This document shows positions 1,262 through 45,612 of a stretch of DNA of 64,000 nt, piece after piece (position 1 is the stretch's first letter; each line of letters opens with the position of its first letter). Below the pieces are notes generated by a model, which searched no databases, was not told the origin of the DNA, and saw only the letters and a list, made by a program, of their open reading frames with translations. Source of the stretch: Cladopsammia gracilis (lineage: Eukaryota; Cnidaria; Anthozoa; Scleractinia; Dendrophylliidae); contig JAJGOT010000292.1 of the NCBI GenBank assembly GCA_022457155.1, positions 342,501 to 406,500 of the forward strand. Reading direction: 5' to 3'. A program made the position numbers and the translations under genes.

Positions 1262-1473
1262 AGTTTCTTTAGGAAGTTACATTGTGTTATTGAAACTTTT
1301 TTATTCAAAGCAGGCTTTTAGCCAGAAGATATTTCCCATCATAAATTTCAAAAAGTGGGCATCCTGAAGATATTTCCCATCATAAATTTTTAAAGGATTG
1401 GGTGCAATTTTCATGAATTTGTTCAAAACGTGGGCATGCACAGGATGCCTGGACACCCTGCTGGCAAAAAGCT

Positions 1474-1757
1474 ACAACCTCGGACAAAACTGTTGAGACA
1501 CTTTTCATCTATTTCTTAATTTTAGGCCCAATTTCCGCGTCAACAAACATAAAGAAATCCCCCCTCCCCACCCCCCCTGCAATGTTGTTTTGTTCTAAAA
1601 ACTGTCTGATTCAAATACAGTAATACCCAAAACAACATTGGAAGGAGGGGGAGGGGAGGGCGCATATTTATATTGTGGTGTGGGAAATTTGTTTCAGAAG
1701 TATACCAAAATGTAAGGGTAATTTCAGTTTGTCTCAACTAGTTTTGTCCGGGGTTGT
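1474..1757. repeat. 284-bp terminal direct repeat, left copy
   Basis: As read, this is identical base for base to 5226-5509. It has its own inverted ends (CAACCTCGGACAAAACT and the complement of CAACCCCGGACAAAACT) and an inner inverted repeat around CAATGTTGTTTTG / CAAAACAACATT, so by itself it looks like a MITE. Its outer edge abuts TA; its inner edge is followed by TC. A 65-codon minus ORF inside it is not considered a gene. Confidence 0.85.
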
Positions 1758-2045
1758 CTATAGACTGTTTTTTATTTCTATGTCGTTGTCAACTTTGAAA
1801 TTACCTTCCTGTTGTTTTTTCTTGTGTGTTTCATTATAGTCGTTATTTTAATACATTTCTTTGTTTGATTGAAACACGAAATAAAAATTGGAGCGGAAAA
1901 TTTCAAGTTGTGGGTGTCGAATTACATAGCTTGTCAACAGGTTCATCGCTGGGAATGCTACAATGAGTACGGCCTGTAAACAAATTGCGCGTCTGTAAAG
2001 TTTTGGAGGTGGAATTTTCAATGTTATTTGGAATCAGTAGTTAAA

Positions 2046-3479
2046 ATGGATCTGTTAAAGTCATATGATAGTGACGAATCATTTTCCGATGATTCAGAAC
2101 CCGCGCGTGTACAACTTGGTGAGAAAGATGTTAGAAGTGTCTATCTGTTAACTTACAGCCAAGCAAATATGGAGCTATTTTCTTCGCGCGAAGATTTTGC
2201 TCTCGCTGTTGTTCGGTCATTCAGCAATGGTAGTGCAAAAATTGTCCAGTGGTGTTGCTGCCGTGAGAGCCACCAAATATCGGGAAAACATTACCATCTA
2301 GCTGTGAAACTAGATCGAAATCAGCGGTGGCTATCGTCGAAAGAATTTTTGCGCAGTGAGTACGGCATCGTTGTAAATTATTCAAGTTGTCATCACAACT
2401 ACTATAGCGCTTGGAGATACGTGACCAAGTCAGACAGCAATTATATAGAAAGCGTTGATCATCCAGACCTAAAAAACAGCCAGGAACCTAGAACAAGTTC
2501 AGCAAGTCGTGCAAAGAGGAGCCTGTGTAAGGGTTTGAGGAAAGCAAAAGAATGTGGTGCTCTCGATGACACAGAAAGTGAGGAGGAAATGGGAGATGCA
2601 GATACGCTCTCCAGTAGAAAAAAAAGAAAGAAAAAGCGGCTATCTGCGTTTGAAGTGTCCGAAATTATTGTCGAAAAGAAACTGGAATCTTTAGTGGAAC
2701 TGCAAGCTCTTGCTTGTGAACAAAAACGCGAAGGGAAAACAGATCTTGCGGAATTTCTTATTAACCGCACGCCTTGTGTGGTGGCGGATATATTAAATTC
2801 TACCTGGCAAATTGAAAACGCACAAGAGAAACTGGCACATTCTAAGAAAACCCGAATGCAAATTTTACAAGAAGCGAGAGAAAGGGAATGCGCAGAAGGT
2901 TGCGGTGGTCAGTGGCAGATTTGTGCGGAAGAAATTCTCAGTAACAATGGAGTTCCTGTAAACGTGTTTCGAGACGCAGTGACAGAGGTTTTGAGTAAGG
3001 GAAGAGGTAAATATCGAAACATCATGATAACTGGCAATGCGAACTGTGGTAAAACCTTTCTGTTGAATCCACTCACTGTGATTTATCAAACATTTTGTAA
3101 TCCTGCAACAGGAAGCTTCGCGTGGGTAGGAGTGGAAAATGCGGAGTGCATTTTTCTTAACGACTTTCGATGGTCGCCTCAAATTATACAGTGGCACGAT
3201 TTATTATTAATGCTTAAAGGGCATGTGGTTAATCTGCCAGCCCCTAAAACGCACTTTTGCAAGGACATTTCCTTAACTTCTGATATCCCGATATTTTGTA
3301 CTGGCAAACACCGTCTCATGTACGTCAAGAATGGCATTGTGGACGAAAGAGAATGCGGAATGATGGATGTAAGATGGAAAATATTTCATTTCACGCATCA
3401 GATCCCGCGGGAGCAACAACGCGAAATCCCCTCTTGTGCAAGGTGTTTTGCTGAACTTGTTATTCCGTCAGGAAGATAA
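2046..3479 (+). CDS. HUH endonuclease Rep with SF3 helicase domain (CRESS-type Rep)
   Basis: A 477-aa protein predicted to nick and unwind DNA for rolling-circle-type replication. The N-terminus is acidic. The endonuclease motifs are in order: motif I VYLLTYS (about 32-38), HUH motif HYH (82-84) and YxxK as YVTK (125-128), which holds the catalytic Tyr. A basic nuclear-localisation-like run RKKRKKKR follows at 191-198. The SF3 helicase has Walker A GNANCGKT (330-337), a Walker B-like CIFLNDF (369-375) and motif C around PIFCTG. The start is the ATG at 2046; the frame is open a little further upstream only through non-ATG codons. The reading frame is intact. The gene is convergent with the transposase. 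The family resembles Rep genes of circular ssDNA viruses and their relatives in animal genomes; its precise nearest relative cannot be set by eye. Confidence 0.85.
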   Translation: MDLLKSYDSDESFSDDSEPARVQLGEKDVRSVYLLTYSQANMELFSSREDFALAVVRSFSNGSAKIVQWCCCRESHQISGKHYHLAVKLDRNQRWLSSKEFLRSEYGIVVNYSSCHHNYYSAWRYVTKSDSNYIESVDHPDLKNSQEPRTSSASRAKRSLCKGLRKAKECGALDDTESEEEMGDADTLSSRKKRKKKRLSAFEVSEIIVEKKLESLVELQALACEQKREGKTDLAEFLINRTPCVVADILNSTWQIENAQEKLAHSKKTRMQILQEARERECAEGCGGQWQICAEEILSNNGVPVNVFRDAVTEVLSKGRGKYRNIMITGNANCGKTFLLNPLTVIYQTFCNPATGSFAWVGVENAECIFLNDFRWSPQIIQWHDLLLMLKGHVVNLPAPKTHFCKDISLTSDIPIFCTGKHRLMYVKNGIVDERECGMMDVRWKIFHFTHQIPREQQREIPSCARCFAELVIPSGR

Positions 3480-3493
3480 TAGCTTTGCCTTTG

Positions 3494-3667
3494 ACGGTTA
3501 ACTTGACATGTAGAATGCAATAGAACATTAAAACGACGGTTAACATGACTTTTCAACGGTTAACAGCTGTTGACACTAATAAGTTAGATATACCATTAGT
3601 TCTTTTTATAAAACGCTGTTAACCGATGTTAACCGTTGAAATGACTATAATCCCTTTTGTTAACCGT
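3494..3667. promoter_or_regulatory. Inverted iteron-like GTTAAC cluster, possible Rep origin
   Basis: Three ACGGTTAAC motifs (3494-3502, 3536-3544, 3556-3564) are followed by three in the opposite orientation (GTTAACCG 3618-3625, GTTAACCGT 3628-3636 and 3659-3667). The inner pairs extend as imperfect arms (TTTCAACGGTTAAC and its complement) around an AT-rich centre near 3590. Rep proteins of circular ssDNA replicons bind such iterons beside their origin. That this cluster serves the adjacent Rep is inference. No nonanucleotide of the TAATATTAC type was seen. Confidence 0.55.
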
Positions 3668-3925
3668 TTTGTAAACGCTATTTCTGTTTTTCAGCGTTTT
3701 TATTCGTATACATAAACACTAGGCTCATTTGTAAAGCATTTTAACGGCTATTTTATTGCAAAAACTTTTTTCGACTGCTTCTGTTAATGCATAATTAATT
3801 CATATTGTCACGCGGTGCGTGATTCTCAAGGCTAAATACAGTCGCGTGACATTGTTTATCTCCTTTTTTCTGTGGTGTTTCCTTCATACATTATTTTACT
3901 GTACTGTTGTTTTATACTTGCTTTC

Positions 3926-5023
3926 TTAATATTTCGTTCTTTGTCCTTTCCCCTTTATTACTAAATTCAGTCGCTGATCCATCGATGCAATTATTTTGTC
4001 AACTACATGAACTGGAATGTTCTTAATTGTTCTAATTACGCGTGAAGTAAATTCGTCGTAACTTTCCTGTGTAATATTCAGTTCCAAAGCTTCTCTTTCC
4101 AGTTCGACTTTAACGACATTAAAAAAATTTTCAATGCAGTGTATATCCCCACTCCTAGGAGGAAGTTTCAATTGTTCCGCCTTCTTGCGACAAACAACCT
4201 TACGTACGCATGCACTATTTTGTACAGGACAGTTGTCCTGAACCCATAAGCGTGATCCATTCTTGTCTGCTTTCCTGAACATTTCGTCAAAATTATTATT
4301 TACAAATGCAGCAAAGTAAGCTCCATCTAATTTTTCATACTTATGACATACAATAGCGCCTTTGCCATAACTTATAGCTACAATTAATTTCAGGACTTTT
4401 CCCCCGCTGCCTACTTTGCTTCCCTTTGCCGAACACCCACGAACTAGTCCTTCGGACTTCTTACGCCAAATACGACCGTGGGGTGCTTTCGCTTGATCTG
4501 CAGGATTTATTTTATACCAAAAACTAACACCATCTAAATAAAAAGCCACAGAATCTTTCCAGACATCTTTTGAATAGTTTTTTTTCATCCGTTTAGCGAA
4601 GGCCATGCGATGTTTAATGTCCTTTTCCGTTAACAAACCTTTCTTCCGTGCTTGAAGAAAGTGGTAGCCATTTTGGTGTAAAAATCGCCGGACTGTCTTA
4701 TTGCTTACATGTTTACCGCTAATTCCAGCCCGGGACATTAATCTAGAAGACGTGAAGTTCCCTTCTTCTTGGCGCAGATGTCTTAAAGTCCTTAATATGG
4801 TTCTCTCTTCTCGCGCACTCAACTTCTTTGGTCGTCCTCCAGCGTGTTTTGTGCGCCTTTGTCTACTTCGCTTCATCCAGGACCCGTTCTTAATGATTCT
4901 GTAGACCGTTGCCCGCGATATATTGCATCTCTTCACGATTTCCGTTACAGATAAATTCATCTCGTTGGCCAAATAAAAAATATACGCCCTTTTGCAAGCA
5001 TCTATTTTACCTTTAAAGGCCAT
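3926..5023 (-). CDS. Tc1/mariner/IS630-type DD34E transposase
   Basis: A 365-aa cut-and-paste transposase. Residues 24-49 form a helix-turn-helix (SVTEIVKRCNISRATVYRI), followed by a GGRPKK hook-like motif (62-67) and a second DNA-binding region to about 120, the usual paired-like layout of this superfamily. The catalytic triad is D164 (FYLDGVSF), D263 (WVQDNCP) and E298 (HCIENFF). The 34 residues between D263 and E298 match DD34E. The frame is complete, with its own ATG and stop. The gene faces the Rep tail-to-tail across 446 bp. It probably acts on the CAACCYCGGACAAAACT ends of the element. The superfamily is certain; the subfamily is not. Confidence 0.9.
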   Translation of the reverse strand: MAFKGKIDACKRAYIFYLANEMNLSVTEIVKRCNISRATVYRIIKNGSWMKRSRQRRTKHAGGRPKKLSAREERTILRTLRHLRQEEGNFTSSRLMSRAGISGKHVSNKTVRRFLHQNGYHFLQARKKGLLTEKDIKHRMAFAKRMKKNYSKDVWKDSVAFYLDGVSFWYKINPADQAKAPHGRIWRKKSEGLVRGCSAKGSKVGSGGKVLKLIVAISYGKGAIVCHKYEKLDGAYFAAFVNNNFDEMFRKADKNGSRLWVQDNCPVQNSACVRKVVCRKKAEQLKLPPRSGDIHCIENFFNVVKVELEREALELNITQESYDEFTSRVIRTIKNIPVHVVDKIIASMDQRLNLVIKGKGQRTKY

Positions 5024-5225
5024 AATTGCTATCTGATTTTCTTAATAGCTTGTTGTTTTACCGCCCTTATTATTGACGTCATAATTTATTGCTTCTAATT
5101 GTTTCAATTATCTCCTTTACACTTTTTCAGAAATTACAAAGCATTTACAACGTCTCTTGAAAATTTGAAAGTGCTCCCATTTTTTAGAGAGAAGTTACAT
5201 CGAATTAAAAAACTTGTCTTCATAG

Positions 5226-5509
5226 ACAACCTCGGACAAAACTGTTGAGACACTTTTCATCTATTTCTTAATTTTAGGCCCAATTTCCGCGTCAACAAAC
5301 ATAAAGAAATCCCCCCTCCCCACCCCCCCTGCAATGTTGTTTTGTTCTAAAAACTGTCTGATTCAAATACAGTAATACCCAAAACAACATTGGAAGGAGG
5401 GGGAGGGGAGGGCGCATATTTATATTGTGGTGTGGGAAATTTGTTTCAGAAGTATACCAAAATGTAAGGGTAATTTCAGTTTGTCTCAACTAGTTTTGTC
5501 CGGGGTTGT
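5226..5509. repeat. 284-bp terminal direct repeat, right copy
   Basis: Identical, as read, to 1474-1757 and in the same orientation. The outer end is followed by TA within GGTTGTA, while the inner end is preceded by GA. Complete identity implies recent insertion or homogenisation of the two copies. Confidence 0.85.
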
Positions 5510-5746
5510 AGATTCAAAGGAAACCCACTTTGGACTGTGCATGCTGATGACAAATTCAATAAATTACATACAGTAGTGATGTGTAATGCAAAACTAAAGA
5601 AACAGGCTGTCCATAAAATAGTAGTGCCCTCCCCAAGGGGCTTTGGGAGAAGCTGAGAAATAGGATCCTCTGCTTCAAACGAGCCCCCTTATTGTTGCTA
5701 TGGTGATGTGACTGTTTCTTTCCTTTTGTTTATTTCTTTTCACAAG

Positions 5747-5882: not shown

Positions 5883-8760
5883 GTGATTATAAATGTTGTG
5901 TGACAATAGCCCAATTTACAGGGTCAAGCCCAAATCATACCGTCCAGAAGGACGTCAGACACCTTATTGAGACTTATATAACGGAGTAACTGGTTAGCTT
6001 TCAGTTGAGGTTGGGGGTAGCAGTTTATATAGTTAAATTTAGGACTATAAGCAACCCGAGCAGCTACAGTGGTACGGTAGGCTATGTAAGCCTAATCCTA
6101 GCTGAGGTCACAGGTTCAATCCTAAGTGGGGATTTTAGATTTTCTTTTTTACACTTAAAAATTTATTGAAAATAAAATTCTAAGAGTCAACATTACGTTA
6201 TATAAGTCTCAATAAGGTGTCTGACGTCCTTCTGGGCGGTATGATTTAACAAACACCAATTTACAGTTGTGTGCTTAGTGACCTGGCCATTGAGTGAGGG
6301 CGAGGCTGAAGTTGACCATGCTTTGATACAAACCTTCCTGTTTTTCATATGTAAATCATTATTGTTCTTATGCTAATTAGTTTTTTGTTGAACATAAATT
6401 ACATATGAGAATCAGGTTTGTTTTAAAACAAAGACAACACCAGCCTCACTTACACTCCAAGCCCAGGCTACTAAGCACACCCAACTGTTAAATGGTCTAT
6501 TGTGCCAGTGGCTAGATAAGTGTGATTCCATGATTCTTGGAAAATATGTTCAACACTCCAAGTTACATGTAACTTTTTTTCTTGGTGGCCATTTGGCCAC
6601 TGACTCTTAAGACTTGGTTGCCAGTGAAAAATTTTAGTCGCCAGAATTAATTAATCAATTAATTAATCGATTATTAATTAACTATTCAATTAATAATTAA
6701 ATACAGTGTATATCCTTATACTTTATTTATTATAACCTTTTCCTGAAACCACTTAAACATTTTTAACTCTCAAACAATTTTTAAAGTGAAATCAAATCTT
6801 TTTATTATAATGATTGATTACTGTACAACGTATTAGCAGCTCATCATAATGAACTTGATATATCATTGGCTTACTTAATAATTAGCTTCAGTTTCAATGA
6901 ATCCTTTACAATGAACTTCGACTTTCGTAGATTTTCAAGATTACAGTTACAGTACATACTTGTTGTAATATCAACCAAAAACAATGGTCAAGATTGAAGA
7001 AATGTCATGCCTTTACTGCCAGTTCAGGAAACCAAATTTTCTGACACTTGTGACCCTTAAGTGGCCAAATGTTTGCCTACATTATTGCTGTGGAAAAACT
7101 GGACACTACCTTCCATATTTGAAAACCTAACAGTTTACCCAAGTGAAGCCACATGATTTGAAGACAAAATGGCAGTGTATTTTCACAAACTAAACAATGA
7201 ACAAAATGTTGTAAAATGAACAAGAAAACATGACATCCTGGCGACATTGTTGCTGTCATGTGCTGGTGCTCTGTTAACTTATCTTTGCATTGATGTACTT
7301 TTTAGCTACATAGGATTTTTGCAAGAAGCACTAGATTTGTTTGAAAAATGGCCATTTTTTCCTGCGAAAATATCGGATGTTAAATGTTTGAATCTTTTGT
7401 CCCCGTTCTGCTTTGTGATTGGTTAACTTTGTCTGGGTGACCCTGGTAACAGTAGCCGCACTGTAAGAATTCACAAAACAAAACACTAGTGTAACTGGTA
7501 TGGTTTATTCAACAATCTTTCGAGAAATGAAACTAAAATCACGCGTATGTCCTGGCGTTATTTACATATTTTTATGCGAAGTGAATGCGAAAAAAATCTT
7601 TCACGTTTGAAGGCAATCGCCAAGACATGATTTTTTGTATCGAAGAAATCTTGAAAAAAGTAAAAAAGTAAATCCTGGTTCGTTCATACAAGTGAAATTT
7701 ATTTGCCGTGGCTTGGCGTAGCCGGTTATGGCTAGACTCGACACACGCGCTTTATTTATACATCCCTTGTTGTCAAAATTGCCTGGCTTTTTCATATGAA
7801 GTATTTTTGCGTCCGCTGTAACAAGACGTGTTTCTGAAATTCATTGTGGATCAATTAACGGTGGAACTTTCCAAGCTTTCGCAGTTCCTTTTATTCTTGG
7901 AGGAAATTTACGAGATTGCGTGTACAGTATCACGCTCAAAGGTAACATTGTCACGTGCTAAAGTTCAGTCAAGCAGAACGAGTACAGTTCGACTCATTCT
8001 GATCGAGAGATAAATCTCCGTTCCTTCTCACGGGTATATTTTATGGATAGAAGTGTTTTGTTTTCATTTACTCAATTTCTGCTGGTTTCAATCGCAAAAC
8101 AAGTATTTTTTTCAAGGTGAATTTGTAACACGTCAGAACGTTCTCTTTTTTTTTACTCGGGCTTCAGATGATTGTCGCTCAAAATTTCGATTAGTCAAAA
8201 TTTTAGGGACGGACCATTTAATTTTTGTGGCGGGGGGGGGGGGTTTGGGCAATTTTCTTCTGAGCATCAATCAATCAATCAATCATCTTTATTTAGTCAC
8301 GGAATCCCATTCATAAAAATGCTCTTCCAGAGAGCCGTGCAAAAATCATGCAATAAAAAATAAATATGGTCATTAAAATTATACTAAATTACAAATATGA
8401 TATAAACGATTTCAGGCTTGTCTGCCCTTTAATAGTATTTGATAGACTATTCCAGAGAACTGCCCCTCTATAGTGGAAGCTATTTTTTCCAGCCTCAGTA
8501 TACGGTCTTGGTACAAATAAATTATATGTTAGGGTTAGGGTTAGGGTTAGAGCATGAATTTTTTTCAGCATCACTATTTGCAAGAATGTTTTTTACCTTA
8601 ATGCTTGAATTTTTTTTAACATGCTTTCTTGTGCACTAATTTTTTTTCTCTTAAATTTCTTCTGCAGGAATTTTTTTTTTGGTAATTGCCCAAACCCCCC
8701 CGCACACAAAAATTAAATAGTCCATCCCTTAGTTGCCAGACTGGCGACTTGGGTTTAAAT

Positions 8761-11800: not shown

Positions 11801-14800
11801 AAGAGGGTGATCCAGCCCCAGCTCCAAAGGCCCGCGAAAACGCTTATTTTGGCAACTCCCGAACGCCCGTGTTAGCAGGCCCCCAGGGCTCATTGCAATT
11901 CGCCCTGGGGGCCTGCTAACACGGGCGTTCGGGAGTTGCCAAAATAAGCGTTTTCGCGGGCCTTTGGAGCTGGGGCTGGATGCACCCTCTTCTACACTAC
12001 TCAGTGCTGCCCAATTGGAGAAATGTTAATCCCTTTGTATATACACCCCCATGGATGCACCACTTAGCTTCGTTAAGAAATCTCAGGGTTGGCGTGGCTG
12101 GCTTCACAGCTATAAAATGACTGTTCCTGATGATTACCCAATTCATGATCTAGATTTATTTTATCAAGAGAACAAACCTGCTATAGTTCGAACTATAGTT
12201 AGAGAGATTACAGACCTCGGCCCCATCAAAGTGAATTTTTCATTCTTAGTTCACTTTTCAAAGGAAGGAGCCGATGGGACACAAAGAATGACCCACTATT
12301 TTAGTCAAAAGAACCCTCTCATAATAACACACTTTTATCAAGCAGCAGTCAATGGACAACTGCAGGCTGTTATCAACTTAAACAAGGAAGAAGTAGCCAG
12401 ATGGGTAAACATGGGTTCAGGCTGGGTTATCGACAGAGTTGAGTACGTCTTTCTTGATTTCTCAAGATATCAAGCCATTAGAGGCGGTTATTATATTCCT
12501 CTCCCTCCAAAGCTCAAAGCAAAAAAGGCAATCATAAACATCAAAAACACAGATAATCAATGCTTTCGATGGGCTTTGCGAGCTGCGCTCTTCCCCACTC
12601 TAGATACGAGACATTCAGACAGGCCAAGCAAGTATCCGACAGAGGATGGCTTAAACTTCACAAACATCTCTTTCCCTACACCCTTACATCAAATATCTGA
12701 AGTAGAAAAACACAATAACCTCGCAATAAACGTCTTTGGCTGGCATAACGGAAACACAACAGTCCTTAGAATTAGTGAAGTACAAGATCCTGAGATAAGA
12801 CGAATCAACCTGATGCTGATAACCAATGAAAACAACACACACTATTGCTACATAACAAGTCTAAGCAGGCTTCTTCATAGCAATTATGAGGCAGGCCGAA
12901 AGATTCATTTCTGCGAAAGATGCCTTCAAGGGTTTTCATCGCAAGATGTTCTCGACAAACATCTGGGTGACTGCAGGGGTATCAAAGGCAGGCCAGTTCG
13001 AACTGAAATGCCCAAAGATGGTAAAAACATCCTGTGTTACGAGGACTACCAGAACCAGATGAAAGCGCCTTACGTTATCTACGCCGACTTCAAAAGTCTC
13101 GTTACAAAAATCGTCACGTGCAAGCCAGACCCAAAAGAAAGCAGCACAACCAAAACATCAGTTCACGTGCCATGTGGGTTCTGTATGATGGCTGTTCGCT
13201 CTGATGGCAAAACAAAAGGCCCATACTTATACAGAGGTGAGGATGCGGTGAAGCAGTTTCTCTACCACATACAACTGTTAGAGAGGGAGATAAGAGACGA
13301 ACTTCATCACAAGAAGCCTGTAACAATGACACGAGCAGACTGGGAAGACTTCAACAATGAAAACTTCTGCAGCATTTGTGATTATTGTCTCTACAAAGAG
13401 AACTTCAAGGACTCTATCGATCTCTACAGTCCGAACACGGGAGCGTACTTAGGTCTTGTTCATCGCAAAACTAACAAATGCTACGCAAAAGCATTTAAAA
13501 CCTTCATCCAAAACGAAGAAACAGGGTGTTTGGAGGAGTTTCCCTTCATAGGTCCAAGAAACAAAAGACAACGAAAAACAAAGCCCATCTTTGAGCAAAC
13601 TGATTGCCTTTTCTGCGAGGAGCCTCTTGTACGAGATTACATGAGAGACGCTGTTTTAGATCACTGCCACATAACAGGCAAGTATCGAGGTGCTGCTCAC
13701 AAAGCTTGCAATCTGAATCACTTCAGAATCAACCCCGAACAAGTGAAAATCCCTGTTGTCTTTCACAACTTGAAGGGCTACGATGCACATCATATCATGA
13801 GCGGCATAGCTGAAGTACAATCTGATCTGAAGTGCATCCCAAACAACATGGAGAAGTACATTTCTTTCTCTCTGGGCAACTTAAGGTTCATTGACAGCTT
13901 GCAGTTTATGTATTCGAGCCTCGATAGCCTGGTTAAATCAAACGAACCAGAGTCCTTTTCAATCATGGCAAACCATCAAAAGGATCCAAATAAACTAAAG
14001 CTCCTTCTGCAAAAAGGAGAGTATCCATACGAGTACATGGACTCATGGGCTCGATTCGAGGAGACCTCTCTCCCACCGAAGGATGCCTTCTACAGCGAGC
14101 TCAAGAAGGAAGGCATCTCAGATAAGGAATACACCCATGCGCAGAAAGTGTGGGAGACGTTCGAATGTAAAGACCTCGGTGAGTATCATGATCTTTACCT
14201 AGAGACAGATGTACTTCTCCTTGCAGATGTCTTCGAGAACTTCAGAAAAACATGCCTCAAACACTACAAACTTGACCCTGCGCATTACTTTACAGCCCCG
14301 GGCCTCAGCTGGGACGCTCTTTTGAAATACACAGAAATTAACCTAGAACTGCTCACAGACATAAACATGCACCTCTTTGTCGAAAAGGGCATGCGTGGCG
14401 GTATTTCAATGGAGAGCAGGCGCTTCTGCAAAGCGAACAACCCCTTTCTTGACGACCACAACCCAGATCAAGAAACCAGATACATCATGTACTTCGATGC
14501 AAACAATCTTTACGGTTGGGCAATGAGTCAACCACTAACTGTTGGCAACTTTCAATGGTGCAGAGTTCATCCAACACAAGACCAAATCATGAAGTGGTCC
14601 CCAAACAGAAAGATTGGCTATATCCTTGAGGTTGATCTAGAATACCCCGAGGATCTGCACGATGAACACAATGCCTATCCTCTAGCACCAGAAAAGCATA
14701 GAGTCGCAAAGTCGTGGATGTCTCCTTATCAAAGGGCATTGATAGATGGGCAGGCAGAGGATAAGACAGAGAAGTTGCTCCTAACTCTCAAGGACAAAGA

Positions 14801-17800
14801 CAGATATGTTCTACATTACAGGAATCTTCAGCTTTATCTCGAGCTAGGCATGAAGTTGAAGAAGATTCATCGAGTGCTCAGATTTGAGCAGAAGCCTTGG
14901 ATGGAGCCTTACATAAAGCTGAACACAGAACTCAGAAAGCAAGCCACTTCTGAGTTCGAAAAGAACTTCTTCAAGCTGATGAACAACTCTGTCTTTGGCA
15001 AGACCATGGAGAACCTCAGAAAACGCATTGATATGAAGCTTGTTCGCGCGAATGAGACAGATAAGTTGAGAAAGCTTATCTCAAACCCACTGTTCGCCAG
15101 AGCAACAGTCTTTGGTGAAAATCTTGCAGGGATTCAAATGCACAAGGACAAAATCTTACTCATACGCCCAGTCTATACCGGTATGTGCATCCTTGATCTT
15201 TCTAAGACTCTGATGTACGACTTCTACTATAAGTACCTCAAGTATAAGTACGGCCCACGCGTTGACCTACTTTACACAGACACAGACAGCCTGCTTCTAG
15301 AGATCAAGACAGAGGATGTTTACAAGGACATGGAGAATCGTCTAGATGAACTCTACGACACAAGCGACTACCCGAAAGACCACTTTCTTCACAGCCAGCT
15401 AAACAAGAAGGTCATTGGCAAGATGAAGGACGAGTGCGCTGGCGCCCCTATCTCTGAAGTGATCTGCCTGCGCTCAAAGATGTACTCAATCATGCTTGGC
15501 AGTCAGAAGAACATCAAGAAGGCGAAGGGCACCACCAAGGCTGTGACGAAGAAGGAGATCACACACCAGAACTACAAAGACTCCCTCTTCAGAAAGGAGG
15601 CCTTCAAACATGGGATGGACATGCTTCGAAGCGTGAATCACCAGATCTATGGCGTTCATCTAAACAAGACAACGCTCTCACCCTTTGACTCCAAGCGCTG
15701 GATAAAAGACGATGGCGTCCATACGCTTGCATATGGTCACAAAGACATCGGAGGCAACTGAGTACCCGACGGCACAACCATCAACTCCTCACGGACAAAC
15801 CCGCGCTTGGGTCCGTCGTACAGATAATACACGACAGGCGCATCTTGCTTGGTGACAGCCTTCTCGATGTTGTAGACTTTCAAAGACCAGATCGGATCAG
15901 TTGCCCGTCGACTACCACCTTCAAGCTCACCGGGGTAATACAGATATCTCAAATTAACCCGAGGTGGGAGCTTCTTTTCCTTCTCACCAACAGGCCTAGC
16001 ATATGGGGTTGCTGGCTTGGCTGAGGTGGCTTTTTCTTTGATTGCTTGAGCGGGTTTCTTGCCAGTCAATCTGGTTACTTCATTGTTCAAGGCCGAGATA
16101 ACATCTGGCAATCTTTTAACCCAAGCGGTCGAACGGCCAGAGGGCAGATTCATTTCAACAGCGTACTGGTAACCAAACAATCGTTCAGCCAGGGTTCTGT
16201 TGAATCTTTCAACAATCCCTTGGTCTCTGTGGATATCAACACGCCCACGACGAATGGTTGTTTTATGGGCCCCAGTCTCTTTAGTCACAGCCCCCATAAA
16301 CTCTGTCCCCGGGTCGACTTGCAACAGTTGTGGCCATTTCAAAGGCCCGCGCCTGTAAATACGTGTAAGCGCCTTCGAAACTTCATCAGACTCTTTCGAA
16401 GTCAAAGGCTCTGCTGCTTTGTAACGGCTAGCCACATCAACAACTGTCAAAGCATATTTGTAAACCTTTCGTCCATGGGGCAGTTTGTCGTGAGGCAAAA
16501 AAAGTAGATCTGCTTGATGTACTGCATTAGGAGTTTGAACATCAAACTTAGGGCGAGGGATGTGGCGTGGTGCAGGGAGATATACTTGCCAAAGAGCTTG
16601 TTTGACGAGCCATTTCTTTGCCACCTCTTCAGATACCTTGGCTGCTGCAGCTAGCTTTTTGACAGCGGCAAGCCCTTTCCAATAGCCTTTGGGGCCGTAA
16701 TAGACCTTTGAGAGTTTCGCCTCCATATACATATACCTATATGTATTTATAAAAAGCGAAACGCTGCATAGCCAAGAGCAAGCGCACTAGTGCCGATAAA
16801 CAAGAGTTCGCCTTGTTTCTGCTGTGGGCCTGGTTTATAGAAGTCAGAGAACTCGGGCTCTTTGGGGAGTGTTATTTGCTGCTCCCGATGTGTTTGGTTG
16901 TAAAGCACTAGAGCTTGGTCAGTGTCTTGAAAGTTGTGTTTCGCTTGATCTTTGATCCTATCGTTGGTTGCAACCCAGTCGAGGAGCTTTGTGCGGTCTT
17001 TCTGATATTTAGCGTAGGCAGCTTGATAGGCTTCTAACGCCTTGTGTCTGATCTTCTCATCCAGAGCGGCTTTCCCACTGTCGCCGGAAAGATATTTTGC
17101 GAGATAGTTGCCTCCAGTGAAAGCAGCGGCATTCAAAATTGCTCCACCAACCATAATAGCGATTGAGGCCATTTCTATATATATATGATTTACATTGAGG
17201 TAGGGAGGATCTTCTGGTCCTCGAGGTATTTCTTGAGAGCTATGCTCCCAGCCATGACGGCAGTGAACTTCACATAGTTCATGAGATTCGAGCTGGGGTC
17301 GGCCGTGAGATTTTCCTTGACGACCTTTTTGCCAATCCAGCCAATACCTGCGACAAGGCCAGTTATTGTGGCCGCATCAAGAACAGCTTTTACGAGTTTG
17401 TTGTCAGCCATGGTGTATATATTACATTTTAATTTTCAGTCTGCTCCTCGTCATGCGTTGTCTCGTTGATCTGTTGTGTTGCTAATCGCCAAACTGTTTT
17501 TAGGGCGATAATGTTGAATTTAAACATAAAAAGAAGAATACCTCCGATTGCAGCCCCGTTTACGAAACTTTGAAAGAAATCTGCCATTGTGTATATATAT
17601 GTTTTTTAATCCATCTCGCGAATTCTTCGTCTCGGTGGTGGGGGAGCTTGAACTTCATTCACCTTTGCTGCCGGCGCAGGGGCAGGGATCGAGGCTTTGC
17701 GTCTAAGTGTATTCATAATGGCCTCACGTTGGTAATAGACGCCCCAAGCGGATATAATCAAACCACCAACACCAAGAATGAGAAATGCTGAGTTGCTGCT

Positions 17801-20800
17801 AGCTTCTTCATTTGTCGAGTTTTGGGGTGCTGAGTTTGGGGCAGACTCATTTGTTGCTATAGAAGCTTGTGCTTGTGCTTGTTTTTTTGCCTCTCTTGCC
17901 AGGCGGTTACGCTCAGCAAGCCTTTTGCCAGAAGCAACACGACCAGGGTTTTTGGCTGGAGCAGTCTTTGGGGCATCAGAGGTAACGTGCGTGTTGGTTG
18001 TAGGTGCTGCTGGCGCGACTGTTTCTTCAGGCACCGTCTTGAGTGGTTGAGCCATCATGTATATATGTAAATTTTATTTCAAACCTTCGTGGTTTCTGTC
18101 AGGTTTCTGCCAGGTTTCTGCCAGGTTTCTGCCAGGTTCCTGTCAGATTATGTGTCAAAAACTTCATCACATGTGTCATCAAAACATTCGTCAACTTCAT
18201 CAAAACCCTCGAGGGGATAACCTTCCCCATCTCTGCTTGGGTGTACAGATAGAGAAGGTAGAAAATATTGCCCTGAATGCTCCAAACGTGACATTACTTC
18301 ATCAAAACCCTCGAGTGGATAACCTTTACCGTCTCTGCTTGGGTGTACAGGTAGAGCAGGTTGATGGGGCAACTCTTCTGCCTCCTTTTTGAAGTCGATG
18401 TGTTTTGTAGTGATCAAAACAGCATTGGCCAAGGCCAAGAATCGCCCACAACGCAGTGCAAGGTTGCCAGCAAGAGATGAAAGTTCGTTGTTAATCATGT
18501 AGTCATTTTTGAGTTCTTTCTGCAGGGTCTTCACATCGTCAATATCAACAACCATGCCGACGCCTTTGGTTGCGAACATTATAACGCTGTCAATCAGAGA
18601 CTCGGTCGTCTTGTTACCGACATAGGCTTCATACCTTTTGTAGTACTTTTCAACCTGTTTATCCGTCAGGCGCTTCACCTGCTCGTGTGTGAGCTGGGCA
18701 CCGATGGCCTCTTTTGATTTGCCGGTTGAAACAAGTACTGCCAGTTTCTCGCGTTGAGCTGGAGTGTCTGGACCTGTCAAGACTTCAGGAATCGCTGATG
18801 GTAAGGAGCTATCAGGGGCTGCCTCTAGCAGCTGCATGATTTCATCGTCTTCTTGGAGGTTTGTTGCCATTGCGTATATATATATGATTTTATTTTTCGA
18901 TAATTCTCTTGATGTCAGGCAAAAGACTTTCAACCTCACATATAAGCCCCGTCATAGTGGCTGGGCACACAGTGAGTTTCAAAGGATAGCGGTTAAGAAG
19001 CATGAGGCGCAGATCGTCCTCGCCAGCGGTTTTGATTATCTGTATTTGCATCTCCTCCGCATGATTCTGCAATTCACCCAGAAGTTGTGAAAAGACCGTG
19101 AGCTTGTGGATACTGGTTGAGGTGTTCATGGTTCAGCGTATATATATGTATATATATTATGTATTTATTTTTTTCACTTCAACCCCATAGGGATGACGCA
19201 GAGAGAAGACTAGGTGAGAAAACTTGTGTCCCTTTAATTTTGCAATCAACTCTTTGTACTCTTGATTTTCAAGCTCCCCGGCATAGTCATCGAATATGGC
19301 CTTCGTTGTTTTGCTTGATGGGGTGTAAAAAAGCACAATCGCTGCAACGTTTTCCCTAAAGGGTTTTGCAATGCTGGTTAACTGTTGGGTTAGCACCCAC
19401 ACTGACAAGCCGCTGTGGCGAGCACTGAAGCCTAGTTTCACAAGTTGACTCGTGCGGCCTTTCACATCCTTCGAAGCAGCACAGTCATCGAGCACAAAGA
19501 GCGTGTTTGTCCCGTCGAAGAAATAACTGGCTAAAGTTAACCATACTTCAATCTCATGCTGCTGACAGTCTATCACGAAAATGCGTGGCTCCTTGTCCAC
19601 GAAACTGTCATATGTCTTGTTGTGGACAAATGTTGGGCAGAAGAGAACAATATAGTCAAACTTGCCCCTGAAGGGCCCGCGCAACTGATTCAGAAGATAT
19701 TGTGTTTTGCCAGAGTTAGTCGGCCCGATAATTAGGGCATTGAATGGCAGCTTTCTTGGGTCCATTATATTTATTGTTTAATACTGAACCGCCTGCAGCT
19801 GTCTGTCTATGATGTTCATCTGTGAGTCGCTGATGGTGTAGATGTGGCAGTGTACATTTCCTGAGCCAGATGCATTTCTTTCGATCTCAAGATGCACACC
19901 ATCCTTTGTGTTGACTAGGCGTTGGCCGTTACCGTGAAGGGTTGTATCAGCCATGAACCGAAGGTCGATAAGGAGGCCGAACTTGTTGCCCGTGAGATAT
20001 TTTGTTAGATTCATGTTGGGCCTGCCATCACCCCTCTTTTTGAAGAGGCGACTGACTTCCCTCCACATGTCGGTCCCGTTGATGCCTTCGTTGTAAATCC
20101 TGTTGGGGTAGCCGTTTATGGTGACATTAACTTTTGTTATGTCTGGGTTGAAGTAATTTTCTGAGTCCCTGGCTCCTGCTGTGTAGGGTTCGATGAATAG
20201 CAGAAGGATGGCTTTCAGTGACCTGCGCTGAGGGTTCACCCTGAGATTCAGCCGTGCGTCTGAACCCTTCGAGAAGGGGACCACTTCCTCTCGCATGATA
20301 TGGTCGTAGGCAAACTCCTTTCCGCTAGAGTATACACTTGCTGCCTCGTCAGCCAGCTGTTTACTTCGGATTGTCTCGTACTCAAGCTGGATATTTGTCA
20401 ACTTGTACACAAGCTTGCTTGTATCCGAACCCTTGACAACTTGAGAAGCAGGGGCGAGCGTAATCTCGAATATCAAATCGTTGTAGAGTGCTTGTGGGTA
20501 CATAACACCGTGGTCTGTTATAATCTGGTGGTCAAGGTTGATGCGATATTTGTTTTTGTAAATGGTCTCCAGCTTTTTTTCCGCATCCACGCCAGAAGTC
20601 TTCTTGTCGCCCGCATTAGAGCGAATCTTGCTCAAGTCTACACTCTGGATGCCCTCGGGGAGCATGTTGTCTCTCTTATCAATAGAAAGGAAAAGGTCCT
20701 CAAAGATTTTGTAAATATCATACCCAACGGTGTCCTGGACAGTGGTGGCGGCAAACTTGACAACGAGTCTGTCAACTAGTGCTCTGGAGACATTTTGTAC

Positions 20801-23800
20801 AAGATAGTTGTTTGCGTGGCCGCCGGCAAGGTCGATGTTAAAGAGCAAGGCAAGCGAGCCCGACACGATAACCTCATGTTCGTTGAGCTTGGGCACCGAA
20901 ACGTACAGGGTCTCGCCGGGCTTGGCTGTAGAGCGCTCAAAGGTGATGCGCTTTACGGTGCGCTCTGCTTTCATAGCACCAAGAATCTTCTCGGCATTCG
21001 TTGGGAGGAGGTTTGCTTGCACGGCCATAGCCAGAGTATATATATATAAATTTATATTTATATACATCATGGCAGAAGGTGGATATGATCAAACTGGCGA
21101 GAACGAAAACCCTTGGGAAGACTGGGGGGTTGACCACGATGGTGACGACGAAGAAGAAGTTGACACAACAACCCCCTTTCAACCGGGCGGCACATCCACC
21201 CCATATCATGGCGGTGAACAACATGAAATGCATGCAATGCCTCACGAACTGAGCGGCTTAGATGAAACTGTCCCTATTCTTGCAGAGGGTGGCAGAGAAC
21301 GGGCCTGGAATGCTATCACGTCACTATATCCAGATGCTAATGCAATAGAACTTGATGCTTATTTTGACCCCAAATCTAAAAGATTAATGATTAAAAAAAG
21401 CGGGGTTGGCAAAAAACCATACCATCTCTACACAAGAGAAAGATTAACTGGCCGTGCAAGAGTAAACCCAAACCTTTCACAAGAAATCAGATTTGCTCTT
21501 GGTAAGTCTGCAGAAGAAAAAATAGTTCAACAACGGCAAGAAACTAGGGAAACAGACCAAAGACTGAAAGAAGCTCAACGACTAGAAAAAACATTAAACG
21601 AAACAGCTGCAAAACAACAGCAAGCGGCTCAAGAAAAACAAGCAAAAGAAGATCAACTTGAACAAATTAACCATCGCATTGCAAATATGGAAAAGGAAGG
21701 AGGTACAGTAATAGAAAGACAAAACGAAACAGACAGACTAAACCGAGAAAAAGCAAAAATTGAAAGAGACATAGAAGAGGCAAAGAAAAAAAGCAAAGAG
21801 TATGCAAAAACTATAATAGATCAAGAAAAAGCTACAAGAGAAGTTGAACGCTTACAGAGAAAACGCGCTGATGAAAAACAAAAAACAAATACCCTCGAAG
21901 CAAGACTGAACTCCACCAAGCCGCTGGATGAGTTAAACGAACAAGAGGCCGATCTTGTATGACAAAACGAGGAAGACAAACGCGTGATAGAGGATGAGAA
22001 CACTTCTCCCTCTGACAGAGAAGCCGCGGAAGCCCGTGTTGCTGAGCGAGAAGAAGAACTGGCAAGACTAAGAACACAAGTTCAGGAAAGAGAAGAAGCC
22101 TTGCCTTTGAGAGAAAGGGTCAAAAATATCTTCAAGAAATATGGCTGGACCCTGCAAGCAGTTGTTCTGGCTGCAGGTCTAGTCATAGGCGCTGTGACGA
22201 TTGCTGCAATGAATGGCTTAAAAGCCGGCACCAAGGCTATTGGCAATGGGCTCAAAGCCCTAGGAAATAAGGTTGCCTCCATCTTGCCAGGCTTGATCGG
22301 CTCGATCGTGAACTTTATCTTCAAAACAGCCGGTCAGGTTATCTCCTTCCTTGGCGAGCACGCCTGGCTGCTGATCCTTGCCGTTGTGGGCTTTATGATT
22401 GAAAGGATCACCAAGCGCAGGAGATAGCCGGTCAGGTTATCTCCTTCCTTGGCGAGCACGCCTGGCTGCTGATCCTTGCCGTTGTGGGCTTTATGATTGA
22501 AAGGATCACCAAGCGCAGGAGATAATTATCTCATCCAGGCAAGAAAGCCTGCCAAAGCAAGCGCACCCACACCAATGAGCGCCTTGTTTACATGATGCGG
22601 CTCGATCTTGGTCTCTTGTGTGGGGTCTGGTGTCGGTGTTGGTGTTGGTGTGGGGGCTAGTTGTGGTGTGGGTACGGGGGCTGGTTTTGGGTCTTTTGGT
22701 GTTATACCTTGTGCCTGTGTCGCCTGTTTATGAATCGGGTTCGATGGGTGGCTGTTTGGTGGATTAATCTTTGTCGGCCCACCGTCCATGGGGCGAAGGG
22801 AGGCTTTTTTTGTAGTCAGATTGACATCATTGTTAACACCAAGCTTCATCCCTTGCGTTGCCTGCATAAGATTGTTATTGTACCCCACCACGCTCTCTGT
22901 GTTGATAACCATGCGTGACGGCATCAGCCAGCTCCCAGGAGCAACTACAAAGTTTAGCCACACTTTCGTTGCTTGGATGGCCTGCTGATAATGTTGTACG
23001 CTCTTAGATATGTCGTTTAGTCTTATGGCGTCCTCTAAGAGCGTGAGGAATACTCTCTGCGTTTCGAACGCCCGACCTCCATTCCCAAGAATGCTGCTGC
23101 GAGTGTTTGCTTGTGCACCCAGAATGCAGTACACAAAGGCCTCGATTGACTGATTCATACGAGCGAGCCCTGGCTGTGTTAGCCCTTGTGCATAATTCGG
23201 CACAAAGTGCTCGAACTGACTAACCGCGCCTTGGTCGTTGCGCACGAAGTAAATGCCGTTTGCGAGATAGTTTGGGTCTTTTCTGTTTGTAATTCTCTCG
23301 TCATCAAACAGGGCTAGATCGGGATCAGGATAGTCGTAATCAGTAGAAAGGGGGCCGCTATATGTGACCCAAATGTACACATTGCCAAGGCCGTGATTCT
23401 TACCGTATGTGAAACGAAAGTCAGAATTGGGGTCTACATCGAATTCTTGGCAAATCCTCTTGTATGCGTCGATGTTGAACTTGTTGTCTTTCTGGTTGAA
23501 TGTGGGGTCGTCTGGCAAAGCACTCACGCTCTGTTCCCCGCCCAGCTTGTAGAGTATTCGTCTTGTTGTGAAATAGACGTGAAACCTGTAAAATGACCGG
23601 AGCTGCGGGGTTAGGGATAGACTGGAGTTCTTATCGAAGAGAATGTCACGCGAGATTCCGCAGCCGGTTGTTGCACACCACAGAGCAAAGTTTAGTTGTT
23701 GTGGCCAGAAACTCATTTGTGGGCTGCCGAGCCACTTTCTCCCATATTTAGCAGTTGTGAATGTAATCTGTGTGTCTCTGAAAATGTTTCTGTATTTTGT

Positions 23801-26800
23801 TGTGAAATAATCAGTTGGCGTGACATAGATCTTTTGCGCTTCGTCGTTCAAGACAGAGCCAATCATCATATCTTTGTCGATTGGGGTGGAGAATTCAACA
23901 GCAGGGATTGGTTTTTGTGTGTTTCGATTTAACATCAACTGATAGGGGAAACCGCCAATATACTCTAAGCCAAGGGCGTCTTTCATGGCTTGTGACCAAT
24001 CCTTGTGCGGTATGTCTGAGGGCCATGAGTCAGGGCCCTTTATGAAAAGCACTTCTCCTGTGGTTTTGTTGTGCTTTTCATTGAAATAAACTTCTGTTGT
24101 AAATCTTGACATATCAGCGTGCGGGAAACGCCTTTTGAAGTCTGAGATTGCTTTCGCTTTGGCCGCTGTAGAGAGTTTTACGGCTTCTGGCGATCTCGCC
24201 CAAGCAAGTTGTGGATCTACTGTGGGGTGTGTTGAAGGTGAGGGCTTTGGTTGGATATACCTTGGTTGATAAATATTAGGGGGACGAGGAAGAAACGGGG
24301 GTGGGGGTCTGTAATCGTGGCCGCCAATGTCTAGACCGAGATTTGAATCAGGATTAAAACCACCAGGGCGTCCACCAAACATGATTATATAAATATATTT
24401 ATAATATATTTATATATACACAATGGTTGTGTTAACAATCGTCGCACATTCGAACCCTCACACCATCTACTTCGATCACCCGCTTCAGAAACCGAGTTAC
24501 ATAAGACTTGTCTCATGTTCACTTTTCAACTTGTGGTTTAATTTGAAAGAAAATGCAATTATTTCAACAACAAAACCTGACTCCAATGGATCAGCACCCA
24601 CCGTGACCTTACCTCCAGGGCATTACACCATTGAAAATCTAGCGAAAGAATTTGATGGCTTAGACACGCATGGGAGAAAAATACAATTATCAGCTACTGT
24701 AAATACACCAGTCGGCTCGATGGTCATTTACAATGGGAATAATGTACAGTTTAGCTACAATCTGGCAAATTTACTTGGCATAAGAGCTGTATTGTTTCTA
24801 GTAACATACGTTAAAGGATTAACATCACCAAGCACTTACTTTATCCACTGCGATTTGGTTGATAAAGAACAGAACCTGTTCAACGGGAAGCCTTCGACTG
24901 TTTTGGCTCGATTTGATCTTCGCGGGAAAGCCTATCAGAAAGTTTTCTATGAATCTACACAGCAAAACATATTGCGTGACGTCTCGTCTGGCGATTATGT
25001 AAACAGCATAACACTGTCTGTAAGGGATGCGAACAATAACCTTTTCGACTTCAATAACATGCCTCTAGAGTTTGAAGTTGAGATCAATTAAAAAATATAT
25101 ATATACAAACGATGAGCTCGGCTAACGTGTTGCCATCAGCTCCTGAATACAGCGAGACTCAAGCGCTTTACCCAGCCTTGCCCCAAAATGGTGAAGACTT
25201 CAGACTCAAGAAAATCTCTGACTTGCAAAAGGAGCTTGAGTCGGAGGCTAATCATTACAGACAAGTTGCTAAGAAATACAAGCGAACACACACCATTGTT
25301 CACGGAGCAGCAGTAAGTTTTGGTTTCATTTCTACAGGCTTGTCTTCAGCCACAATCGCCACAGCTCTTAGCGGAGTTGGGCTCATCGCCAGCCCGGTTA
25401 TTGCCGGCGTGGCAGCTATTACAGGTTTTTCAGCAGCCGGCATCACTTTGTTTAGTAGGCGGCTCGAGAGAAAGATCACGAAACATGAGAAAATATACAC
25501 ACTCGCCCTTGCAAAACGAAACTCTGTCTTTGAGCTGGTTTCAAAAGCTCTAACTGACAAGCGTATCAGCGATTCAGAATTCAAAATAATCCTTCGTGAA
25601 GTTGAGAGCTATTATGAACTGAAGAACGAAATATGCTCTGGTGAAGCAAAACCCTCACAAAACAAACAAACTCAAACTCAAACGCCAGATCTTGACAAGA
25701 TCAGAAAAGAAATCCGCAAGGAAGAACAAGAAAAGATTAAAAAAAAACTCAATCGTCTTACCGCTGTGTCCAAGTCAGATTCGAAAGACTAAACTCGGGT
25801 TTCTCGCTTTATCTAACAAAAGAACGCAATTGCGTGACAAAGCGTGACACATGACGTGACATTGTGCGTGACTGTCACGCGTGACATTGCGTGACACATA
25901 ACGAAAAGGGACAAAACCCTAGTCAGGGGGTGCTCTGGTGGCTGTTTCGTTTTTGCCTAGCCTAGGCTAGGACTTAACTCCGGACAAGGGAGTTGTCGTT
26001 TCCCATTTAGCCTCTGGGAGCGAGGTTGAGTTCTCCTAGGAGATCTCTGTTCGAGCACCCCCCTGTATCAGTTGGGCCGGGGCTGGTTCACCAGGGGGTC
26101 ACTAACTGACGCAGCAACCCCACTACCCCTGGTCTGACATCGCATTAGCCGTAAGCAGGATTCAGTGGGGGCCAGCCACACCTCCCTGAGCTATACCGAA
26201 TTACAGACTTAACATTATATATGGTGCGAACAGGTCTTTTATATTCGAGCGAATTGCCGAGTTTTCACATGTGGTAACTCATAAAGAACTACGCATGCGC
26301 AAATGTGGCCGAAAAGTTATATTTTTCTAAATATGGCCTTTACATAATGATACCGGAAGTCACGAGATAACCCAATTGAAAAAACAATTGTATTGTTCAA
26401 GCATGGCTGACTTCACCGCACGGCTCAATGTACTTGAGAAAGAACACAATTTTGCCATACTTCGCTCGCTATACGGTGGTGATTATAGAAAAGAAATTCA
26501 TCGATTGTGTCTGCCGGAAAAACTTAATCATATCTACGAAGATATGGGGTTGGCAGAGATGGGGAAACAATATCTACAAGAACATTATAACATCAGACAG
26601 CGTGATCGTTGGGCTCGAAGGTTCCTGTATTGTTATGATTGCGGTGGTTCATTTTTGCAATCAATCGATTCGTATGAACTGTATTGCAAAAAATGCGGGC
26701 GTGTGGAAGTACAAGAGGATTATGTTCCGGCATATACGAATCAAAACAATTTTTACAAGCCAAGGCAAAGACAATCGGCACGATTTTATGCATTTGGCTA

Positions 26801-45579: not shown

Positions 45580-45612
<33 letters not shown>

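Follow-up and report, generated by a model that had tools for sequence, protein, structure and literature searches.

A Rep gene and a transposase gene that lie between the same two ends raise the question of how the DNA that carries them multiplies. Rep genes belong to rolling-circle replicons, whereas in Tc1/mariner-IS630 elements the transposase is the only gene between the short inverted repeats. The window analyzed here, a stretch of 64,000 nucleotides of the stony coral Cladopsammia gracilis (contig JAJGOT010000292.1, positions 342,501 to 406,500), contains both genes in one unit at positions 1475-5508. A preliminary description of this DNA had offered two explanations: a mobile replicon that can excise to a circle copied by its Rep, or a Tc1 element that had captured a viral Rep. 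We conclude, with a probability of about 0.68, that the unit belongs to a family of integrative replicons present in many copies, in which Rep would replicate a circle and the transposase would insert concatemers at CTAG. What makes the locus interesting is that one recurrent unit joins a Tc1/IS630 transposase to a Rep whose active-site motifs are conserved, and shows signs of an intermediate with a single repeat.

Firstly, the two genes belong together. The unit runs from CAACC to GGTTG, is flanked by TA on both sides and contains only two long genes, which are convergent, lie between the end repeats and have open frames. The genome searched is the same 877.8-Mb assembly that contains the window, and it yielded at least 104 matches to the Rep and at least 113 to the transposase. 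We read 25 Rep clusters, every one of them picked via its Rep match: the window, 20 loci (L010-L029) and the arrays C751:1-30900, C1052, C1121 and C260. A transposase, whole or in pieces, was present in 24 of the 25, and the ends were of the same kind wherever both were readable, except at L019; the recurrence in independent TA-flanked insertions that had been proposed as the sign of a true system was thus found. The remaining cluster, L011, is a rearranged copy without a transposase within the stretch read. The Reps of the subfamilies are 48-65% identical to the window Rep, and ends and layout are common to the subfamilies. At the level of listed matches, a Rep lay no more than 3 kb from 81 of 99 transposase places, and 75 of the 87 Rep places that were clustered (17 of the 104 matches, all N-terminal pieces, were excluded) were paired with a listed transposase.

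Secondly, the pairing is also seen in the protein database, and the two proteins have diverged together. There, seven Rep/transposase pairs lie on contigs of identical length, six of them computed among 120 listed transposases and one found by eye. Because lengths shifted by 1-30 gave 0-5 matches in a control, only pairs on contigs above 10 kb count as strong, and there are three of these (384268, 14805 and 1761352). Both the Rep and the transposase lists contain many contigs of 3.6-4.2 kb; these may be collapsed repeats or circles and were not used as proof. Rep relatives among the matches listed include proteins of Acropora millepora (P0092) and Porites evermanni (P0241), both stony corals. 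Distances between Reps correlate with distances between their linked transposases (Mantel r 0.744, reached in 0 of 20000 permutations) over 13 pairs, 8 of 21 having been dropped as near duplicates; the first seven pairs alone gave r 0.67 (76 of 5040 permutations). The comparison of Rep with linked transposase that the preliminary description had suggested therefore reveals co-divergence, not full congruence. These results refute the view that the unit is a chance nesting, i.e., a Rep fragment of an endogenous virus inside one Tc1 element: both genes occur in 24 of 25 clusters, they co-diverge, and the ends and layout are shared across subfamilies, which leaves that view next to no probability. 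A Tc1 element with a single chance capture of a Rep in the window is excluded on the same grounds.

Thirdly, the catalytic motifs of both proteins are conserved. The Rep gene (positions 2046-3479, plus strand) encodes 477 amino acids, with an HUH endonuclease at about residues 26-141 and a superfamily 3 (SF3) helicase at about residues 194-477. The HYH (H82, H84), YxxK (Y125, K128) and SF3 Walker motifs, which had been seen as intact in the window, are not only present but invariant, with Walker A K336 and N372/D373, in an alignment of 44 Reps made up of the window Rep and 43 of 120 listed homologues. In six of six young pairs the Rep has a nonsynonymous distance (dN) below the synonymous one (dS), dS being saturated in distant pairs. 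The transposase gene (positions 3926-5023, minus strand) encodes 365 amino acids of the DD34E Tc1/mariner-IS630 type. Its frame is open, and D164, D263 and E298, described earlier as intact, are invariant, with DD34E spacing, in 36 aligned sequences (the window transposase and 35 of 120 listed homologues). It matches the Pfam families HTH_Tnp_Tc3_2 (1.1e-12) and DDE_3 (9.9e-9), and a profile search retrieved Sleeping Beauty (1.7e-16) as well as Mos1 and Tc3. For the transposase, dN is below dS in five of six young pairs, one of which includes a fragment (L012); the exception is the window with L010 (0.008 versus 0.004). The transposase frames of three subfamily B copies (L015, L017, L018) are broken.

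The label "CRESS-type Rep/helicase" given to the Rep needs a qualification for its helicase part. The HUH domain resembles the Rep of tomato yellow leaf curl virus in fold, contains a YxxK motif and is about as large as the corresponding domain of geminivirus Reps. The helicase part, on the other hand, matches SF3 helicases (Foldseek and VIA); of the folds listed, those of adeno-associated virus (AAV) Rep and papillomavirus E1 come nearer to it than those of CRESS Reps. Pfam matches of the Rep to viral families are weak, and a sequence-profile search of the PDB with the Rep gave no match. Cysteines at residues 282, 464 and 467 are also invariant in the 44 Reps, with a CxxCF near the C terminus, and perhaps form a metal site. 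The virus-like fold and the weak Pfam matches would fit the integrated stage of a coral single-stranded DNA (ssDNA) virus whose capsid is supplied elsewhere and whose transposase serves as integrase, for which spiroplasma ssDNA phages with transposases provide a parallel. However, the unit has only two long genes and protein scans found no relatives in the viral contigs, and we consider this explanation quite improbable. A protein scan of prokaryote genomes found no relatives either. One pattern match in viral contigs (L001) is likely due to chance.

The outer ends behave as those of a transposon. The 26 insertions retrieved were read at both ends in all but three cases (L011, L020 and the long C751 array), and 22 of the 23 have a matching 2-bp duplication within C..G: 18 TA, three TG and one TT. 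In the window, the left copy of the duplication (1473-1474) stands in the context C-TA and the right copy (5509-5510) in the context TA-G, confirming the TA-flanked unit reported previously. As TG is found on both sides in L015, L029 and C1337, the dinucleotide belongs to the target and not to the element. It should be noted that the TT/TT of L014 relies on a right end placed via its inverted partner; with the end 2 bases further out there is no duplication. L019 has no clear 2-bp duplication; at this locus the 171 bp just outside the left end equal the 171 bp just outside the right end. The inverted ends of the other subfamilies are similar to the 28-bp inverted ends of the element in the window. 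A preference for CTAG has been reported for IS630, according to the title of Tenzen and Ohtsubo 1991 as cited in PMC2170065.

The two ends of the unit are a pair of long direct repeats. The identical 284-bp repeats of the earlier account (1474-1757 and 5226-5509) were confirmed; each consists of 282 bp plus a flanking A and T, so that the left repeat proper, a transposase end, occupies 1475-1756 and the right repeat, identical and in direct orientation, 5227-5508 (both on the plus strand). Each 284-bp repeat in turn forms a hairpin over nearly its whole length (fold z -8.2 and -9.1), with 28-bp inverted ends of its own. The 282 bp comprise the inverted ends CAACC..TTGAGACA, a C-tract, the core CAATGTTG-N-CAACATTG and a G-tract. 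The core, near the C and G tracts, is found in eight of eight representatives (CAAAGTTG in L024). The inner junctions of the window repeats are AGA|CAACC and GGTTG|TCT, not TA.

For the comparison of end repeats, from which L011 and L020 were excluded, 18 of 19 loci were delimited on both sides, L013 having one whole repeat. Thirteen of the 18 repeat pairs are without substitution, four of them gapped (L012, L014, L016, L019); four others have 1-3 substitutions (two in L027) and L017 has nine. Among 27 variable columns, taken from 15 elements of five subfamilies, both repeats of every element agree in 16 (A 8/8, C 2/2, D 5/8, E 1/1) and disagree in 11. In a tree of the repeats, the two repeats of one element mostly group together outside subfamily B, with L027 as an exception. 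In the simplest reading of these patterns, one template would give rise to both repeats of a new insertion.

Hairpins at both ends could also point to a parvovirus-like linear replicon, whose end repeats are terminal hairpins copied by the rolling-hairpin mode. Such copying, with its flip and flop, would mix orientations, but all 18 delimited pairs are direct (18 of 21 loci had a direct pair; only direct pairs were sought). Moreover, ten of ten arrays are head-to-tail, the one inverted neighbor pair being L010/L011, 6 kb apart on C751, and the HUH domain has the YxxK motif and the domain size of a geminivirus Rep. We regard this explanation as very improbable. An inward extension of the inverted repeat in the window (57 bp, 86%), which had suggested an analogy with the D-sequence of AAV, was dropped since it is not general across loci. 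A candidate CRESS nick site in the repeat loop (GGGTATTAC) was likewise dropped, being present in subfamily A only among the subfamilies folded; TATTAC arises by chance in 3% of shuffles of the loop and in 11% of shuffles of the whole repeat.

Signs of a form with one repeat come from arrays and solo repeats. The 87 Rep places form 61 clusters, ten of which are same-strand, head-to-tail arrays of 2-8 units. Their spacing is near-constant: on C751 it is exactly 3752, the length of the inner part together with one repeat, and on C1467 it is 4153. Neighboring units are identical over 3468 (L010), 3827 (C1467) and 3894 (C1337) bases. All seven arrays read at both outer ends (in the other three, these were not both read) have one matching outer 2-bp duplication, as single insertions do. 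For the end repeat of the window's subfamily there are 40 scored matches, seven of which have no listed gene on their contig. CTA precedes and TAG follows every one of these seven solo repeats. Six are 281-283 bp long, and L048 is altered near its left end. L050 and L051 have common flanks, leaving six solo sites. If the two repeats of an element recombined, a solo repeat would be left and a one-repeat circle set free. Alternatively, a repeat may have transposed as a small non-autonomous element.

Two arrays deserve separate mention. The C751:1-30900 array (L030, L031) has at least eight units; in the units read, each of the two genes exceeds its counterpart in the window by one base, and both frames are split in all eight units listed, so that the multiplication seems to have started from a broken template. 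The C1121 array (L033, L041) has a spacing of 3445-3480, which is 257-292 bp below the 3737 of the related C260 array, and no internal end repeat in the stretch read; its internal hairpins seem to have been lost, or omitted by the assembly.

A replication origin is predicted at 3495-3666, in the region between the two stop codons. In the window, six copies of CGGTTAAC (forward at 3495, 3537 and 3557; reverse at 3618, 3628 and 3659) surround an AT-rich core of 53 bp (3565-3617, 72% AT) that lies between the inverted iterons. Seventeen loci were compared with 300 shuffles each, any 8-mer being scored, and six copies of an 8-mer occurred in 0 of 300 shuffles of the window region. The same layout recurs in most of the subfamilies tested, with words of their own: CGATTAAC in L014, CGAATAAC with CGATTAAC in L015-L018, CGGTTCAC in L019 and CGGTCTAC, in three or four copies, in L021, L022, L024 and L026. 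Shuffles matched the observed count in 0 of 300 cases for the window, L010, L012, L014, L019 and L024, and in 1-2 of 300 for L015-L018 and L026; L020 is uninformative, another repeat being inserted there. The iterons follow the Rep subfamily, as binding sites of a replication initiator would. The best candidate for an origin is this region, not the end repeats. CRESS-type Rep origins have a hairpin with the conserved nonanucleotide NANTATTAC; no such sequence is shared by the iteron cores compared. A separate motif, TGTCACG or CGTGACA, lies close to the transposase gene's 3' end (3806-3851 in the window) in 15 of 17 loci, the exceptions being L019 and L032.

Taken together, these features suggest the following cycle. 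Recombination between the two repeats, or the action of Rep, would generate a one-repeat circle of about 3752 bp. Rep would bind the iterons and nick nearby, and rolling-circle replication would give circles and head-to-tail concatemers. A one-repeat circle alone cannot yield a two-repeat insertion; a concatemer can, and arrays would result from it too. Within a concatemer, the transposase would cut two repeats at their outer ends and insert repeat-genes-repeat, or several units, at CTAG. Recombination between repeats would leave a solo repeat with its TA. Thus, of the mobile replicon originally suggested, the recurrent unit is shown, the one-template-like repeats, arrays and iterons are signs in its favor, and the circle stage remains a prediction.

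Several observations weigh against this view. First, 18 of 99 transposase places and 12 of 87 Rep places are without a listed partner, although one of three unpaired transposase places on C1342 adjoins Rep sequence and one unpaired Rep (C1270:1181922, L025) adjoins a degraded transposase. Second, the Rep and transposase trees are partly incongruent (P0081, P0009, P0027), so that some exchange is likely. Third, in subfamily B, eight of eight variable repeat columns differ within elements; the other three disagreeing columns are in D. Fourth, the inner junctions vary between subfamilies: AGA..TCT in A, C and D, AGA..TCC in E, ACA..TGT in L014, ATA..TAT in L019 and C802 (L039-L040) and, in B (L015-L018), CTA..TAG, like insertion sites. 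Fifth, iteron enrichment is weak in subfamilies C (L021/L022, 34-35 of 300 shuffles) and E (L028/L029, 18-30 of 300), and L032 shows none (148 of 300); no 6- or 7-mer is common to all seven subfamily cores compared, no nick motif is shared, and TATTAC in the repeat loop is confined to subfamily A. The empty scan of viral contigs is a further point. Finally, no circle or circle-junction read was seen, the circle being predicted from integrated copies, and arrays and solo repeats can come from unequal crossing-over, as in long terminal repeat (LTR) elements.

These last points lead to the chief rival, a plain cut-and-paste Tc1/IS630 transposon in which the Rep is an old passenger with another role, such as copy gain during host replication, the repeats are equalized by gene conversion, and arrays and solo repeats arise by unequal crossing-over. 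On the one hand, the transposase, the TA duplications and the inverted ends suffice for it, direct end repeats are known from LTR elements to give rise to arrays with common repeats and to solo repeats, and the eight-unit C751 array with its split frames indicates that multiplied units need not be active. On the other hand, it leaves unexplained the subfamily-specific iterons and the conservation of the Rep, with its invariant motifs and its dN below dS in all young pairs. Furthermore, repeats that differ within copies (the nine substitutions of L017, the eight columns of B) indicate that conversion in place does not always equalize them. We therefore consider this rival unlikely, and prefer the integrative replicon.

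Outside the element, the window contains other repeats. A 49-bp minisatellite of 23 copies (1-1264) stops about 210 bp from the element; further minisatellites have units of 41 bp (37489-39639), of 40 bp with a strong C bias (42627-44889 and 45607-46286) and of 67 bp (48431-50414). Two arms of a 52-bp inverted repeat (5932-5983 and 6196-6247) are 98% complementary and 212 bp apart. The stretch 12030-28191 is Polinton/adintovirus-like, with several long open reading frames (ORFs) without Pfam match; a 1243-amino-acid ORF is polymerase-like by eye with Endonuclease_7 as its sole Pfam match, an ORF at 15740-16786 matches the rve integrase below the Pfam cut-off (1.6e-6), and one at 27250-28191 matches YqaJ (3.2e-16).

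Cut-and-paste transposons are generally considered to gain copies only indirectly, and the route by which ssDNA-virus Reps enter genomes is unclear. If our view is correct, the coral element would be a natural DNA transposon that is copied out and pasted in, and a bridge between ssDNA replicons and transposons. It predicts circle junctions and subfamily-specific binding of Rep to iterons, and there is a real chance of a new element class if the circle is shown. We give slightly better than even odds to the element representing a distinct eukaryotic class, which would combine rolling-circle copying from an iteron origin with Tc1/IS630 pasting into CTAG in an LTR-like cycle without RNA.

How does the element compare with known systems? 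It resembles Tc1/mariner-IS630 elements (Sleeping Beauty, Mos1, Tc3; IS630, ISY100) in transposase family, DD34E and TA duplication, and adds the 282-bp hairpin direct repeats, the iterons and the Rep gene; the transposase is not the sole gene, since a Rep stands alongside it in 24 of 25 clusters, which were chosen by Rep. With CRESS-type Reps it shares HUH/YxxK, SF3 Walker A/B and iterons, but not the nonanucleotide hairpin. The end repeats of LTR retrotransposons come from one template, and these elements form tandem arrays that share repeats and leave solo repeats; the analogy in these three respects is structural only, as the coral unit is without reverse transcriptase and would be replicated at the DNA level. 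Helitrons encode a single Rep-helicase protein, lack a transposase and make no target duplication; the coral element likewise brings an HUH enzyme into a eukaryotic transposon, but differs by its 2-bp duplications and its DDE transposase.

Among titles and the starts of abstracts, a scope that leaves aside most subscription papers and Repbase, there was no description of this coral Rep-transposase family. Section 8 of PMC3198968 covers parvovirus-like elements of acorn worm, Hydra (DENSOV_HM) and planaria, which are cases of ssDNA-virus Rep genes multiplied in animal genomes; that of the acorn worm has a hairpin at its 5' end. In that section no transposase is described for them, and the coral element differs by its direct repeats and 2-bp duplications. 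The same source (Liu et al. 2011, PMC3198968) reports a geminivirus-like transposon of Tuber melanosporum, amplified in the genome, with Rep-like and transposase ORFs inside 37-bp terminal inverted repeats and no obvious target duplication; its Rep is interrupted, one transposase is interrupted and one truncated. Compared by description, section 8 mentions no long direct repeats, arrays or iterons in the truffle element, unlike the coral one, yet both hold Rep and transposase ORFs within one amplified unit. The truffle element, though degraded, is the nearest precedent, and the coral family, with its relatives in stony corals, is a variation on the kind of Rep-plus-transposase element already known from it.

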